From assembly GCF_900101965.1 (NCBI RefSeq), contig NZ_FNAP01000015.1, positions 1 to 64,000 on the forward strand: a DNA stretch of 64,000 nucleotides, given 5' to 3'. A program made the position numbers and the translations under genes. The notes beneath the pieces are model-generated. The model was not told the origin of the DNA. It was given only the letters and a program-made list of their open reading frames with translations, and ran no database searches. Numbering within the stretch: the stretch's first letter is position 1; each line of letters starts with the position of its first letter. This document shows positions 24,781-41,972 of this stretch, piece by piece. This DNA is from Rhodospira trueperi. Lineage in GTDB: Bacteria > Pseudomonadota > Alphaproteobacteria > Rhodospirillales > Rhodospirillaceae.

Positions 24781-24812
24781 CTCCGGGTGCTTTCACCCGG
24801 AGTGCGGTAGCT
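24781..24812 (+). promoter_or_regulatory. Hairpin plus ops-like element, cluster 1
   Basis: The stem CTCCGGGTG (24781-24789), loop CTTT and CACCCGGAG (24794-24802) form a perfect 9-bp hairpin. It is followed at once by TGCGGTAGCT (24803-24812), whose GCGGTAGC equals the core of the ops element (GGCGGTAGC) that pauses RNA polymerase and loads RfaH in E. coli. There is no T-tract, so it is not an ordinary terminator. The hairpin sits about 11 nt upstream of the end of the ops-like site, the usual geometry for a hairpin-stabilised pause. The first structural gene starts 180 bp downstream. Confidence 0.7.
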
Positions 24813-24992
24813 ATTCAAGCACCTTGTTTCGGCAACCGAGCGGAACTCCCAAACGATCCGGGACGGATCGCAACGAGCATTTGCCTCACGACCAAATGGC
24901 TCGGGCGCGTCAACCGCGCGCTTTCCTGACGTTCCCGTTGCCGCGCGGTCATTTGCACACGCCATGAAAAGACTCTCGAGGACAATGGCACG

Positions 24993-25940
24993 ATGAAGCG
25001 CTTCGCCTTGATTGGGGCCGCAGGCTATATCGCTCCGCGCCATATGGGCGCGATCCGTGAGACCGGAAATACGTTGGTCGCCGCGCTTGATCCCAACGAT
25101 TCGGTCGGCATCATCGACAGCTATTTTCCCGAGGCGGACTTTTTCACGGAATTCGAGCGCTTCGACCGCCACGTTGACAAGCTGCGGCGCCAAGGCCACG
25201 GCATCGACTTCGTTTCGATCTGTTCACCCAACTATCTGCACGACAGTCACATGCGTTTCGCGTTGCGCTCCGGCGCGGATGCGATCTGCGAAAAACCCCT
25301 GGTCCTGAATCCCTGGAACATCGACGGCCTTCAGGAAATCGAGCAGGACACCGGCCGGCGTGTGAACACGATCCTCCAACTCAGGGTTCACCCAGCCATC
25401 TTCGGTTTGCGGGACCAAGTTTCGGCGGAAACCGCCGCACGTAAACACGAGGTGGACCTGACGTACATCACCTCACGGGGGCACTGGTACCACCAAAGCT
25501 GGAAGGGCGACGTCAAGAAATCCGGCGGCATTGCCACCAACATTGGCGTTCATTTCTTTGACATGCTTCACTTCATTTTCGGAAACCTGCAGGAGAACCG
25601 CGTTCATCTGCGGGAGGACTCGCGCGCCGCAGGATACCTGGAGTACGAGCGAGCCCGGGTGCGATGGTTCCTCTCTCTCAATGTCGAAGACGTTCCAGAA
25701 GCGCCGCGCGCCAACGGCCAGCGCACCTATCGGTCGATTACGGTCGATGGCGAGGAGATAGAGTTTTCGGGCGGGTTCGCCGATCTACACACGCGGTCCT
25801 ACGAGGAGATCCTGGCCGGAAACGGTTTCGGGCTGGAGGAAAACCGCGTGGCGATCGAAACGGTCGCGCACATCCGTTCAACGCCGCTGTCGGCGATGGG
25901 AGACGAGACGCACCCCCGTGCCCGACGTGTCCACCCGTGA
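24993..25940 (+). CDS. wbpB: UDP-GlcNAcA 3-dehydrogenase (WbpB/WlbA-like)
   Basis: This Gfo/Idh/MocA-family oxidoreductase (315 residues) oxidises C3 of UDP-N-acetylglucosaminuronic acid. It has the N-terminal Rossmann fold ([18 protein letters not shown]), the conserved [10 protein letters not shown] segment, and the WlbA-type pattern [17 protein letters not shown]. It is the first structural gene of cluster 1 and overlaps the acetyltransferase gene by 4 bp (GTGA). WbpB, WbpE and WbpD act in series to make UDP-2,3-diacetamido-2,3-dideoxy-glucuronic acid. Confidence 0.88.
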
Positions 25941-26527
25941 CCTATAGCATTCACCCCAGCGCCATCGTCGATGACGGCGCCGAAATCGGCGACGGAAGCC
26001 GCGTCTGGCACTTCGTGCATGTCTGCGGCGGGGCGCGGATCGGCAGCGAGGTCTCGCTGGGGCAGAACGTCTTTGTGGGCAACACGGTCGTGATCGGCGA
26101 CCGGTGCAAGATTCAGAATAACGTCAGCCTATATGACAACGTGACCCTGGAAGACGGCGTATTCTGCGGCCCCTCCATGGTGTTCACCAACGTGCGCAAC
26201 CCGCGCGCCCTGGTCCAGCGCAAGGACGAGTACCGCGACACCCTCGTCCGCCACGGCGCCACGCTGGGGGCGAACTGCACGGTCGTTTGTGGCGTGACCA
26301 TCGGACGTTTCGCCTTTGTCGGCGCCGGCGCGGTGGTAACCCGCGACGTGCCTGACTTCGCTCTGGTGGTCGGCACACCGGCACGGCGGATCGGCTGGAT
26401 GAGTGCCCACGGCGAGCGCCTGGATCTGCCGATCGAGGGCGAGGGCGAGGCGATCTGCCCGGCCACCGGGCTGCGCTATGCCCTGCGCGGCGACACGGTA
26501 ACCTGGAACGACGAGGCGGCAGGATGA
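25937..26527 (+). CDS. wbpD: UDP-3-aminoglucuronate N-acetyltransferase (WbpD/WlbB-like)
   Basis: This 196-residue left-handed beta-helix acetyltransferase has hexapeptide repeats ([20 protein letters not shown], then [20 protein letters not shown]). It acetylates the 3-amino group made by WbpE. The start is GTG at 25937, overlapping the wbpB stop; [14 protein letters not shown] is the usual family start. Its stop overlaps the aminotransferase ATG. Confidence 0.88.
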
Positions 26528-40679: not shown

Positions 40680-41375
40680 ACGAGAGGCGCCACGACTGCG
40701 GCTGGATCGGCGGCCGACACTGATCTCACCCTCGGGCTGTTGCGGGCGATCGAGGATGATCCTCGTCAGTCCCAGCGGAGCCTCGCGGCCCGGCTGGGCA
40801 TTGCGGTGGGCCTGACGAACGCGGTCCTGAAGCGGGCCGCCGCAAAGGGCTTGGTCAAGGTCGGCACGGCGCCGGCGCGGCGGTATGCCTACTACCTGAC
40901 GCCCCAGGGGTTCGCCGAGAAGTCTCGCCTGACTCTTCAGTATCTGGAGCATTCGCTCACGGTCATTCGCGACGCGCGCGAAGCCTTCGCGGCCGAATTC
41001 GTGGCCTGCCAGCGCCAGGGCTGGACCCGGGTCGCCCTTCTGGGGGGCGGCGAGATGGCCGACATCGCGCTCCTGGGGGCGCAGGAGGCCGGCGTGCCTC
41101 CTCTTGCCGTGATCGCGTCGGCGCGCGCCGGGCAGGTCCGATCTGGCGTGGCCGTTGTGGCCGACATTGCCGCCGCCCGGGCGCTTGCGATGGGAGGCCA
41201 GTTGGATGCGATCGTCCTGACCGAGGTTCTGGAGGTATCCGCGCGGGTTCAGACCGCCAGGGCGGCTGACATCGCGACGGATCGCCTGTTGGCCCCGGCC
41301 TTCCTGCACCCGCATGGTCCTGCGGTGTCGGCCGAGCTCGGGCGTCTTGGCGACGGGAAGTGGACCGCCGCATGA
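40674..41375 (+). CDS. MarR-type EPS-associated regulator with Rossmann-like C-terminus
   Basis: This 233-residue protein has a winged helix-turn-helix of the MarR/EPS-associated type (residues about 17-90; QRSLAARLGIAVGLTNAVLK, wing near RRYAYYLTPQG). A C-terminal Rossmann-like region follows (RVALLGGGEMADIALL to LDAIVLTEVLEV, about 117-187) that could bind a nucleotide-sugar or another metabolite. Its stop overlaps the NusG-like gene (ATGA). It probably controls its own promoter and so the whole of cluster 2, possibly sensing a glycan precursor; this is inference from position and domains. Confidence 0.8.
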   Translation: MNTRGATTAAGSAADTDLTLGLLRAIEDDPRQSQRSLAARLGIAVGLTNAVLKRAAAKGLVKVGTAPARRYAYYLTPQGFAEKSRLTLQYLEHSLTVIRDAREAFAAEFVACQRQGWTRVALLGGGEMADIALLGAQEAGVPPLAVIASARAGQVRSGVAVVADIAAARALAMGGQLDAIVLTEVLEVSARVQTARAADIATDRLLAPAFLHPHGPAVSAELGRLGDGKWTAA

Positions 41376-41872
41376 GACGTTGGTATGCCGTCCATACCCA
41401 CGCGCGAGCGGAGGAAAAGGCGGAGTTTCACTTGCGCCGCCAGGGCTATGAGGTTTATTGCCCTCGCCTGGAGCGAACGCGGCGGCATGCAAGGCGGGTG
41501 GAGACCGTGTTGCGGCCCATGTTCCCGCGCTATCTGTTCACACCCCTGGATGTTGAGGCACAACCTTGGCATGCGATCAACGGGACTTTCGGCGTCAAGC
41601 ATCTGGTCGGTCGAGGGGAGCGCCCAACCCCGCTGCCCGGCGGCTTGGTCGAAGCGCTCATGGAACGAGAATCAGAGGCCGGGGCAGTCACAGTCCCGGT
41701 GCCCGCGTTCCATCCCGGAGAGGCCCTGGTCGTGGAGGAGGGACCGTTTAGGGATCTGGTGGCCCGCTTCGAGATCATGGCCGACAGGGAGCGGGTCACG
41801 GTTCTCTTGGACCTTCTGGGCCGCGAGATTCGTGTGACCGCGCACCACAGCGCCGTCCGTCGGGCGAGTTGA
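41372..41872 (+). CDS. NusG/RfaH-like transcription antitermination factor
   Basis: This 166-residue specialised NusG paralogue has an N-terminal NGN domain (RRWYAVHTHARAEEKAEFHL, then RRQGYEVYCPRL and LRPMFPRYLF) and a C-terminal KOW segment (FHPGEALVVEEGPFRDLVAR). RfaH-type factors load on RNA polymerase paused at an ops site and suppress early termination in long glycan operons. An ops-like site lies 91 bp after its stop, and a second one precedes cluster 1. Being one of the first two genes of the locus resembles the UpxY arrangement in Bacteroides. Confidence 0.88.
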   Translation: MRRWYAVHTHARAEEKAEFHLRRQGYEVYCPRLERTRRHARRVETVLRPMFPRYLFTPLDVEAQPWHAINGTFGVKHLVGRGERPTPLPGGLVEALMERESEAGAVTVPVPAFHPGEALVVEEGPFRDLVARFEIMADRERVTVLLDLLGREIRVTAHHSAVRRAS

Positions 41873-41940
41873 CCCCCGCTCCCTTGAGGGCCGGCGGGGC
41901 GCGGCGTAGCGCGTGGGCGGCTCGGGTTTGTTCCATTGGC

Positions 41941-41972
41941 CTCCGGGTGCGTTCACCCGGAGTGCGGTAGCT
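41941..41972 (+). promoter_or_regulatory. Hairpin plus ops-like element, cluster 2
   Basis: The stem CTCCGGGTG (41941-41949) and CACCCGGAG (41954-41962) has loop CGTT, followed by TGCGGTAGCT (41963-41972). Stem and ops-like bases are identical to copy A, while the loop and the sequence on both sides differ. It lies between the NusG-like gene and fcl, which starts 103 bp further on. Confidence 0.7.

Follow-up and report, generated by a model that had tools for sequence, protein, structure and literature searches.

A covarying hairpin fused to an ops-like box, linked to RfaH-like genes and glycan operons, as a candidate RfaH loading site in Rhodospira trueperi and related bacteria

The closest described system is the ops element of Escherichia coli, where U11 is the pause position of RNA polymerase and a DNA hairpin forms from bases G2-C9; the same source sets ops apart biochemically from hairpin-stabilised pauses (PMC11001881), and a 2019 review places it among the backtrack-stabilised class II pauses (PMC6391919). 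A conserved stem-loop among JUMPstart elements is described in Weinberg 2010 (PMC2864571). The 2019 review also states that nothing is known about the recruitment of any specialised NusG paralogue besides RfaH (PMC6391919), and LoaP was later tied to a leader hairpin (PMC12691694). An alignable, covarying candidate site is now available for a large alphaproteobacterial branch, and its orphan copies name likely regulons.

We analysed a window of 64,000 nucleotides from Rhodospira trueperi (contig NZ_FNAP01000015.1), in which all features given here lie on the + strand. The stem pattern CTCCGGGTG-N4-CACCCGGAG, which had 0 occurrences in shuffled sequences, is found at 24781-24802 (hairpin 1, 9-bp stem, loop CTTT) and at 41941-41962 (hairpin 2, 9-bp stem, loop CGTT), in each case with the box TGCGGTAGCT directly 3' of the stem (24803-24812 and 41963-41972). 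A first-pass annotation had held these to be the only two copies in the window, which is true, and the exact 3' arm plus box likewise occurs only twice in the whole 4.2 Mb assembly (98.5% complete), to which a covariance model of hairpin and box added no third place. The two hairpins, both seeds of that model, match it at 40.6 and 41.6 bits; the RNA folding energies of the two sites are -18.3 kcal/mol (z -3.25) and -20.5 kcal/mol (z -2.38). Their 3' arms carry a TTCACC (24792-24797 and 41952-41957) that is conserved in the consensus of the element set. Extended to 12 positions, the boxes read TGCGGTAGCTAT (24803-24814) and TGCGGTAGCTGT (41963-41974); both contain the G2-C9 core GCGGTAGC, and both differ from the full ops 12-mer GGCGGTAGCGTG at positions 1 and 10-12, the last three being TAT and TGT, so that the usual T11 and G12 are absent. 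Site 2 could also carry a 1-nt insertion. Given these deviations, the register in R. trueperi may be off, or the sites may be weakened. A scan for promoter-like sequence near site 2 was empty. Each site is followed by a glycan cluster, the first at 24993-40070 (oxidoreductase, DegT, epimerases, AsnB-like, GT2, WbqC, YfhO) and the second at 42076-60139 (GDP-fucose synthase, gmd, ABC export with Wzt_C, GT2, DegT, GT group 1).

Alignment shows that 24629-24812 and 41785-41972 are 83% identical and that 24114-24619 and 40548-41053 are 98% identical. By this comparison, the site 1 segment (24114-24812) is a degraded duplicate of the MarR-rfaH-leader module of site 2 (40548-41972) and has lost about 0.73 kb from its interior. 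At site 2, a full-length MarR-type ORF (40674-41375; HTH_24, translation and alignment) overlaps by 4 nt the start of an rfaH-like gene (41372-41872). At site 1, the deletion product is a MarR-type (EPS-associated-like) ORF (24240-24716; TIGR04176 70.2 bits, cut-off 88) fused to the last ~28 codons of the rfaH-like gene, with 68% identity to residues 138-165 of the RfaH-like protein. The window therefore holds one intact RfaH/NusG-type gene, as had been proposed. The further proposal that loops and flanks differ around an identical stem and box holds for the downstream flanks, which are unrelated, but fails for the upstream ones. Since the two copies stem from one segmental duplication, the fact that they are identical is by itself little evidence of selection, and it might be asked whether the sites are identical only through duplication of the flanking module and have no function at all. 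We regard this as the least probable of the explanations considered, because across the order, the class and beyond the composite turns up with other stems, in which changes are compensated; it is refuted for the element family, although site 1 alone could still be a decaying copy.

A search of related genomes for the stem and box beside the NusG paralogue, suggested by the first-pass annotation, revealed the association. Among 317 genomes of the order, the covariance model found 112 places. Of the 106 genomes that have an RfaH-like gene (E<=1e-15), 85 carry the element, versus 3 of the 211 that have none (Fisher p 1e-52). For 77 of the 114 RfaH-like genes it lies 34-88 nt downstream on the same strand; the modelled element is missing just downstream of the other 37, and missing altogether from 21 of the 106 genomes. 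A structure-free search of named genome contigs, a set in which some genomes also belong to the order set, found GCGGTAGC within 400 nt downstream at 51 of 80 rfaH loci versus 16 of 1855 other 400-nt windows; 26 of the 80 loci have no box within 400 nt. Orphan copies precede operons that lack an rfaH-like gene just upstream, and the first ORFs after them belong to sugar-polymer families in 17 of 28 cases, with 4 more being HAD-like hydrolases (raw counts). Both RfaH-like genes and glycan operons are thus linked to the composite element. No such element was seen at L007-L010, which are weaker RfaH-like loci of the same family, and at L053 TTCACCCGGAC is present and the box is changed. Scans of the class and phylum also place the element in one family outside Alphaproteobacteria; among their matches, L219 and L220 look like chance and L221 lacks the box.

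The hairpin is supported by covariation. Our seed alignment joined 20 of 28 order elements to both window sites (22 seeds), leaving out L058 as near-identical to L046/L052, and L039, L042, L043, L045, L054, L062 and L064 because their stems were weaker or displaced; since MAFFT alone left the 5' arms out of register, N was used to pad the loops. The covariation score of 0.235 versus 0.098 for shuffled alignments (0/500) therefore rests on a set chosen for clear stems, and on 56 distinct model matches the score is 0.230 versus 0.106 (0/500). When arms were swapped among 107 elements, which had been gathered by a model favouring paired stems and this box, own pairs averaged -11.8 kcal/mol and permuted ones -9.65 (0/5000); for the structure-free set the values are -12.6 and -10.8 (0/5000, n=53). 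Such covariation fits an RNA hairpin or a DNA cruciform alike and does not separate them.

The geometry of the element is nearly fixed. Stems average about 9 bp, and the last pair is flush with box position 1 in 64 of 107 elements and is at most 2 nt away in 99. The core is present in 105 elements, the other 2 having C6. Position 11 is T in 98/107 and position 12 is G in 101/107, a preference that matches E. coli ops, and positions 10-12 are GTG, ATG or TTG in 91/107, so that the usual box elsewhere is TGCGGTAGC followed by one of these triplets, commonly with T at position 1. Covariation, near-fixed spacing and gene linkage together bear out the original proposal of an ops-like element with a real hairpin tied to a NusG/RfaH paralogue. 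Given that the hairpin usually stands just after rfaH stop codons, it might instead serve to end the rfaH transcript coming from upstream, as a terminator or a processing site, with the box incidental. This is very improbable: the box core is conserved at near-fixed spacing, orphan copies lack an rfaH-like gene just upstream, and no T run is conspicuous after the stems of the elements inspected. An intrinsic terminator was likewise rejected for the window, where a scan at site 2 and inspection of the sequence by eye at site 1 found no terminator-like T run after the stem.

The first-pass annotation had regarded a hairpin fused to ops as non-classical. This is wrong, since Rfam JUMPstart (RF01707), when aligned to the rfb and waaQ leaders of E. 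coli K-12, places a stem-loop 1 nt before ops. RF01707 found no match in the window at its gathering threshold and none at E<=1 in 9 loci, the two window sites among them, and no Rfam family could be assigned to the element. In two draws of 398 phylum genomes, RF01707 matched 18 genomes and model R1 matched 21, none shared (compared by eye). By these comparisons, the alphaproteobacterial element differs in sequence from JUMPstart and is unmatched by Rfam, with an architecture that was already known. The suggestion of an alphaproteobacterial type thus survives as to sequence and stem, but not as to range.

The protein encoded at 41372-41872 (P0001, 166 aa) is an RfaH-like NusG paralogue. It scores 77.7 bits with PF02357 and 113 bits with the RfaH model TIGR01955, which is below the cut-off of 144.5 and the best among the six NCBIfam models listed; Foldseek matches it to RfaH and NusG chains. 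AF2 predicts an NGN domain and a beta-stranded KOW (best model mean pLDDT 88.7, five models 68.9-88.7). Two ops-contacting side chains of E. coli RfaH, H20 and R23, are present, and K10 and R73 are replaced by H10 and F73; R73 occurs in only 6 of 60 aligned RfaH-like sequences. Of the autoinhibitory E48-R138 pair, R138 is kept in 60/60 sequences, and E48 is R in the window protein, with E absent from the eight residues listed for this column, which cover 60/60 sequences. An alpha-helical, autoinhibited KOW was therefore rejected as a candidate, as far as the best AF2 model and the replaced E48 indicate. A 2026 preprint associates ops-independent action with RfaH homologues that are encoded in cis and beta-folded (PMC13015549), and against that background it is puzzling that an RfaH-like protein whose KOW is predicted to be beta adjoins a strongly conserved ops box.

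We believe that each site is a leader loading site (ops) for this protein, with the hairpin bracing the pause, and we give this reading a probability of about two in three. Pausing, loading, the bracing role and action at site 1 are what we infer. Once hairpin and box are transcribed, RNA polymerase would pause with roughly box position 11 at the 3' end of its RNA; the covarying hairpin of this RNA, 11 nt from that end, would sit flush with the upstream edge of the RNA:DNA hybrid, hold the paused register and hinder backtracking. The core in the non-template strand would show a G5-T6 loop to RfaH, which would bind, displace NusG/Rho and enable polymerase to traverse the long sugar-polymer operon. 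It would act in cis at site 2, and in trans at site 1 and other orphan copies. The nearly identical place of the JUMPstart hairpin and the lack of a T-run terminator at site 2 are consistent with this loading-site reading; the off-consensus window boxes, the loss of K10 and R73, the rfaH-like genes and genomes without the element, and the separation of ops from hairpin pauses count against it. Whether RNA hairpins belong to ops pausing is now a testable question.

TCACC is conserved even in elements whose opposite strand is mismatched or missing (A stands at -8 in 106/107 elements, although the base opposite it is often unpaired); this suggests readout of the sequence in addition to pairing. 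UCACC resembles the anti-Shine-Dalgarno tail of 16S rRNA. It is conceivable, though we think it unlikely, that the hairpin is itself the binding site, with RfaH or NusA reading chiefly its UUCACC strand while the ops box only slows polymerase. Such readout would suit the strand's conservation, the NusG-RNA complex among the Foldseek matches, and LoaP, which needs and binds a leader RNA hairpin (PMC12691694); the box core is, however, at least as conserved as the hairpin, the UNCG loop of LoaP is absent from the window, and the LoaP model NF033641 gives the protein only 41.6 bits against a cut-off of 125. More doubtful still is that the basic RRHAR tip of the NGN beta-hairpin recognises TTCACC in the upstream DNA duplex, with RNA pairing as a secondary aid. 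H39-A40, at the turn that joins strands 32-39 and 42-49 in the AF2 model, is found in 60/60 sequences, R37 in 55 and R41 in 57, and the NusG beta-hairpin may touch upstream duplex (PMC7593976). Stem covariation would be left unexplained, and HAR is no less conserved in relatives that have no element nearby, which are included in the 60 sequences, so that no coupling of HAR to the TTCACC strand was demonstrated and the proposal of one was dropped.

Extending the loading-site reading, we tentatively suggest, at rather less than even odds, that an RNA hairpin is a general, selected part of the RfaH loading signal, and that JUMPstart and alphaproteobacterial stems might achieve one geometry, at 11-12 nt from the paused 3' end, with two unrelated sequences. 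Hairpin and TTCACC readout might then give the alphaproteobacterial branch the specificity for which E. coli RfaH relies on fold-switching; if so, a non-autoinhibited RfaH could still be site-specific and act in trans.

Among known systems, LoaP of Bacillus likewise pairs a specialised NusG with a leader RNA hairpin, but the hairpin is a different one (UNCG rather than CTTT and CGTT), the protein subfamily differs by score, and we know of no ops box in that system. The his pause hairpin lies ~11 nt from the 3' end, and the stem base of our element stands at about the same distance from its expected 3' end; the alphaproteobacterial hairpin differs from this class I type in being fused to an ops box. 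E. coli RfaH shares with the window protein the NGN and KOW domains and residues H20, R23, Q24 and T72, whereas identity is 27%, the KOW is predicted to be beta, and the gene adjoins its own site. JUMPstart shares with the element a stem-loop directly upstream of GCGGTAGC and usually NTG, sugar-polymer leaders and a tie to an RfaH. The JUMPstart stem, of 5 bp, stops 1 nt short of ops and holds GGTAGC within its 5' side and loop, whereas the alphaproteobacterial stem has ~9 bp, most often stands flush with the box, carries the conserved TTCACC, and is usually followed by T at position 1 and found just behind an rfaH gene.

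The first-pass annotation had described a hairpin joined to an ops-like box at two places, and both copies are present (hairpins at 24781-24802 and 41941-41962), each in front of a glycan cluster, with no further copy in the 4.2-Mb assembly. Site 2 is preceded by a MarR-type ORF (40674-41375) and then by the RfaH-like gene (41372-41872), and site 1 by a fused ORF derived from a second copy of this module that has lost about 0.73 kb. Duplicate and module share 98% identity across 506 bp in the MarR part (24114-24619 against 40548-41053) and then 83% across 189 aligned columns of adjoining leader, up to the box; as judged from the alignment, this gap suggests that the MarR part has recently undergone gene conversion. 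Stem and box are therefore identical within the window through inheritance from the duplication, and evidence for the element has to come from other genomes. The fused ORF is open (24240-24716, 158 aa), joins a MarR-type domain to an RfaH KOW tail and could be either a functional regulator or a remnant. A tRNA-Arg (TCT) gene (23947-24023) immediately precedes cluster 1 and the duplicated module, a possible island boundary.

The closest NCBIfam model to the window's RfaH-like protein (P0001, 166 aa) is RfaH, with a score under the curated cut-off. Within the family, P0001 finds matches in 54 of 73 genomes at E<=0.001 and in only 6 at E<=1e-15, the remainder being weak and in the same range as the housekeeping NusG of genome G000. 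Across the order, 106 of 317 genomes carry an RfaH-like gene at E<=1e-15 (114 genes). At 28 of the 33 loci read first (L006-L010 and L038-L065), CACC-N4..8-GCGGTAGC occurs on the gene's strand within 1.5-kb flanks, upstream of the gene at L045; it was not found there at L007-L010 and L053. A covariance model of hairpin and box (R1) was seeded with both window sites and 20 of the 28 motif-bearing loci, picked for clear stems, and matches 112 places in 88 of the 317 genomes, 85 with an RfaH-like gene and three without, although these counts are not independent of the seeds, all of which were drawn from the order. Two of the three exceptions are incomplete (G103, 78%; G119, 88%), such that the gene may be missing from either; the third is G262. 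The composite element lies 34-88 nt downstream of 77 of the 114 genes, and thus the motif does recur beside this NusG paralogue in related genomes, where the first-pass annotation had proposed to look for it. The other 35 places include three antisense shadows of cis elements.

Beyond the order, R1 matched 53 of 385 genomes in a class sample and 21 of 398 in a phylum sample, the window genome being counted in each. Among 48 loci examined from these searches, 27 are preceded on the same strand by an ORF that phmmer with P0001 marks as RfaH-like (E<=1e-4) and whose frame ends at most about 320 nt away; L221 is without the box, and L219 and L220 look like chance matches. When named loci were gathered by protein similarity, 50 of 80 had an R1 match (E<=0.01) at most 400 nt downstream, including six Bradyrhizobium species, Paramagnetospirillum kuznetsovii and two MAGs titled Gammaproteobacteria. 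Bradyrhizobium retamae carries a tandem pair of elements behind its rfaH-like gene (L272:4298-4336 and 4536-4576). One family outside the class also has the element, with stems that co-change (ATTCAG/CTGAAT, CAACAG/CTGTTG, CTATAG/CTGTAG).

Covariation in the seed alignment is 0.235 versus 0.098 when shuffled and at most 0.057 in slid versions (20 distinct rows, six bulge cells set aside as N). For the named loci and the window, which together give 56 distinct matches, it is 0.230 versus 0.106, and both sides change in six of ten pairs, in an alignment that was fitted to the structure and includes three minus-strand matches. When each 5′ arm is paired with the 3′ arm of another element instead of its own, the fold loses about 2 kcal/mol on average; the real pairing was not equalled by any of 5000 permutations, either in the R1 set (n=107) or in a set selected by the box alone (n=53). 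Singly, the effect is weaker, with the own arm better than every different arm in 27 of the 107. Of 107 elements, 64 have the stem flush with box position 1 and 99 have it at most 2 nt away, a geometry in which the hairpin could brace a paused polymerase. Conservation of the inner TCACC strand goes further than pairing explains: 106 of 107 elements keep A at -8, while the opposite base is unpaired in 6 of the 20 seed rows and 16 of the 56. Because the stem covaries, yet TCACC is kept where its partner is unpaired, the hairpin seems to consist of two layers, a covarying paired outer stem and a fixed inner strand. In the 3′ arm, UCACC is the same sequence as the 16S rRNA anti-Shine-Dalgarno tail, and many 5′ arms resemble GGUGA; a link to ribosome recruitment is possible.

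Numbered as in E. coli ops, box positions 2-5 and 7-9 are invariant in 107 elements, position 6 is T in 105, 11 is T in 98 and 12 is G in 101, counts to be read with a model that favours this box and a placing regular expression that lost 0 of 109 extracted elements. In E. coli, according to PMC11001881 and PMC5995543, the non-template hairpin spans G2-C9, RfaH reads G5 and T6, and RNAP pauses at U11; a pause at the alphaproteobacterial box would be comparable. Two class-level copies (L183, L190) have C at position 1. L053 retains TTCACCCGGAC (1200-1520) with the box GACGTCAGCG, either by decay or by altered specificity. The window boxes keep positions 2-9, with TAT and TGT at 10-12 (GTG in the congeneric genome G033), and the site 2 box looks like the consensus with one inserted T. 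These off-consensus positions are the main doubt about function in the window genome.

The data establish the composite element with its covarying stem, its geometry and its link to RfaH-like genes; that polymerase pauses at the box, that the protein loads there, that the hairpin braces the pause and that the protein acts in trans are inferred. Among 60 aligned sequences including the window's, H20 is kept in 41, R23 in 44, Q24 in 59 and T72 in 59, and ops-contact residues rarely kept are K10 (4) and R73 (6), with E48 absent. A structure predicted from this alignment (mean pLDDT 88.7, 68.9-88.7 over five models; pTM 0.65) has NusG and RfaH chains as best Foldseek matches and superposes on RfaH chains of ops-paused complexes over about 97-99 columns within 1.8-2.1 Å. 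Its beta-hairpin turn bears a near-invariant RRHAR, and its beta-stranded C-terminal domain, as modelled, suggests that RfaH-type autoinhibition does not operate.

Orphan places, R1 matches without an rfaH-like gene just upstream, would be sites of action in trans. We took 31 (three antisense shadows and window site 1 left out) and followed 29, omitting short contig ends L125 and L126; some others lie near contig ends, where a neighbouring rfaH may be cut off. Mechanical picking of the first ORF downstream with 150 codons or more succeeded for 28, and 17 of these, as a raw count, belong to sugar-polymer families (Polysacc_synt_2, glycosyltransferases, epimerase, AlgX, NeuB, CTP_transf_3, DegT, PglD). 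The others are four HAD-like hydrolases, a methyltransferase, a radical SAM protein and LpxK, with four lacking a family match at E<=1e-8. The LpxK place seems to lie inside the gene itself and is probably a chance match.

The first-pass annotation had proposed an alphaproteobacterial type. The element indeed differs by score from JUMPstart RNA (RF01707), and no genome matched both models across two phylum draws of 398, compared by eye; the taxonomic limit fails with the family outside the class. Searches of the open-access literature, including passages of the RfaH evolution paper PMC7593976, gave no report of the element. In the structural literature, ops is held to be unlike hairpin-stabilised pauses (PMC11001881) and is classed as a class II pause (PMC6391919). 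An RNA from alphaproteobacterial leaders akin to one from E. coli is conceivable. The earlier view that a hairpin fused to ops is not classical must be abandoned: in E. coli, the leaders of rfb and waaQ are both matches to JUMPstart RNA, with a 5-bp stem-loop, one G and then GGCGGTAGCGTG. Ten more JUMPstart copies share this spacing, some with compensated stems (CTGGT/GCCAG, TTGGT/GCCAA, CAGGT/GCCTG), and in eight of the ten the minimum-energy fold has the stem. Because these copies share the order of stem-loop, one G and box, the combination of hairpin and ops is classical in position.
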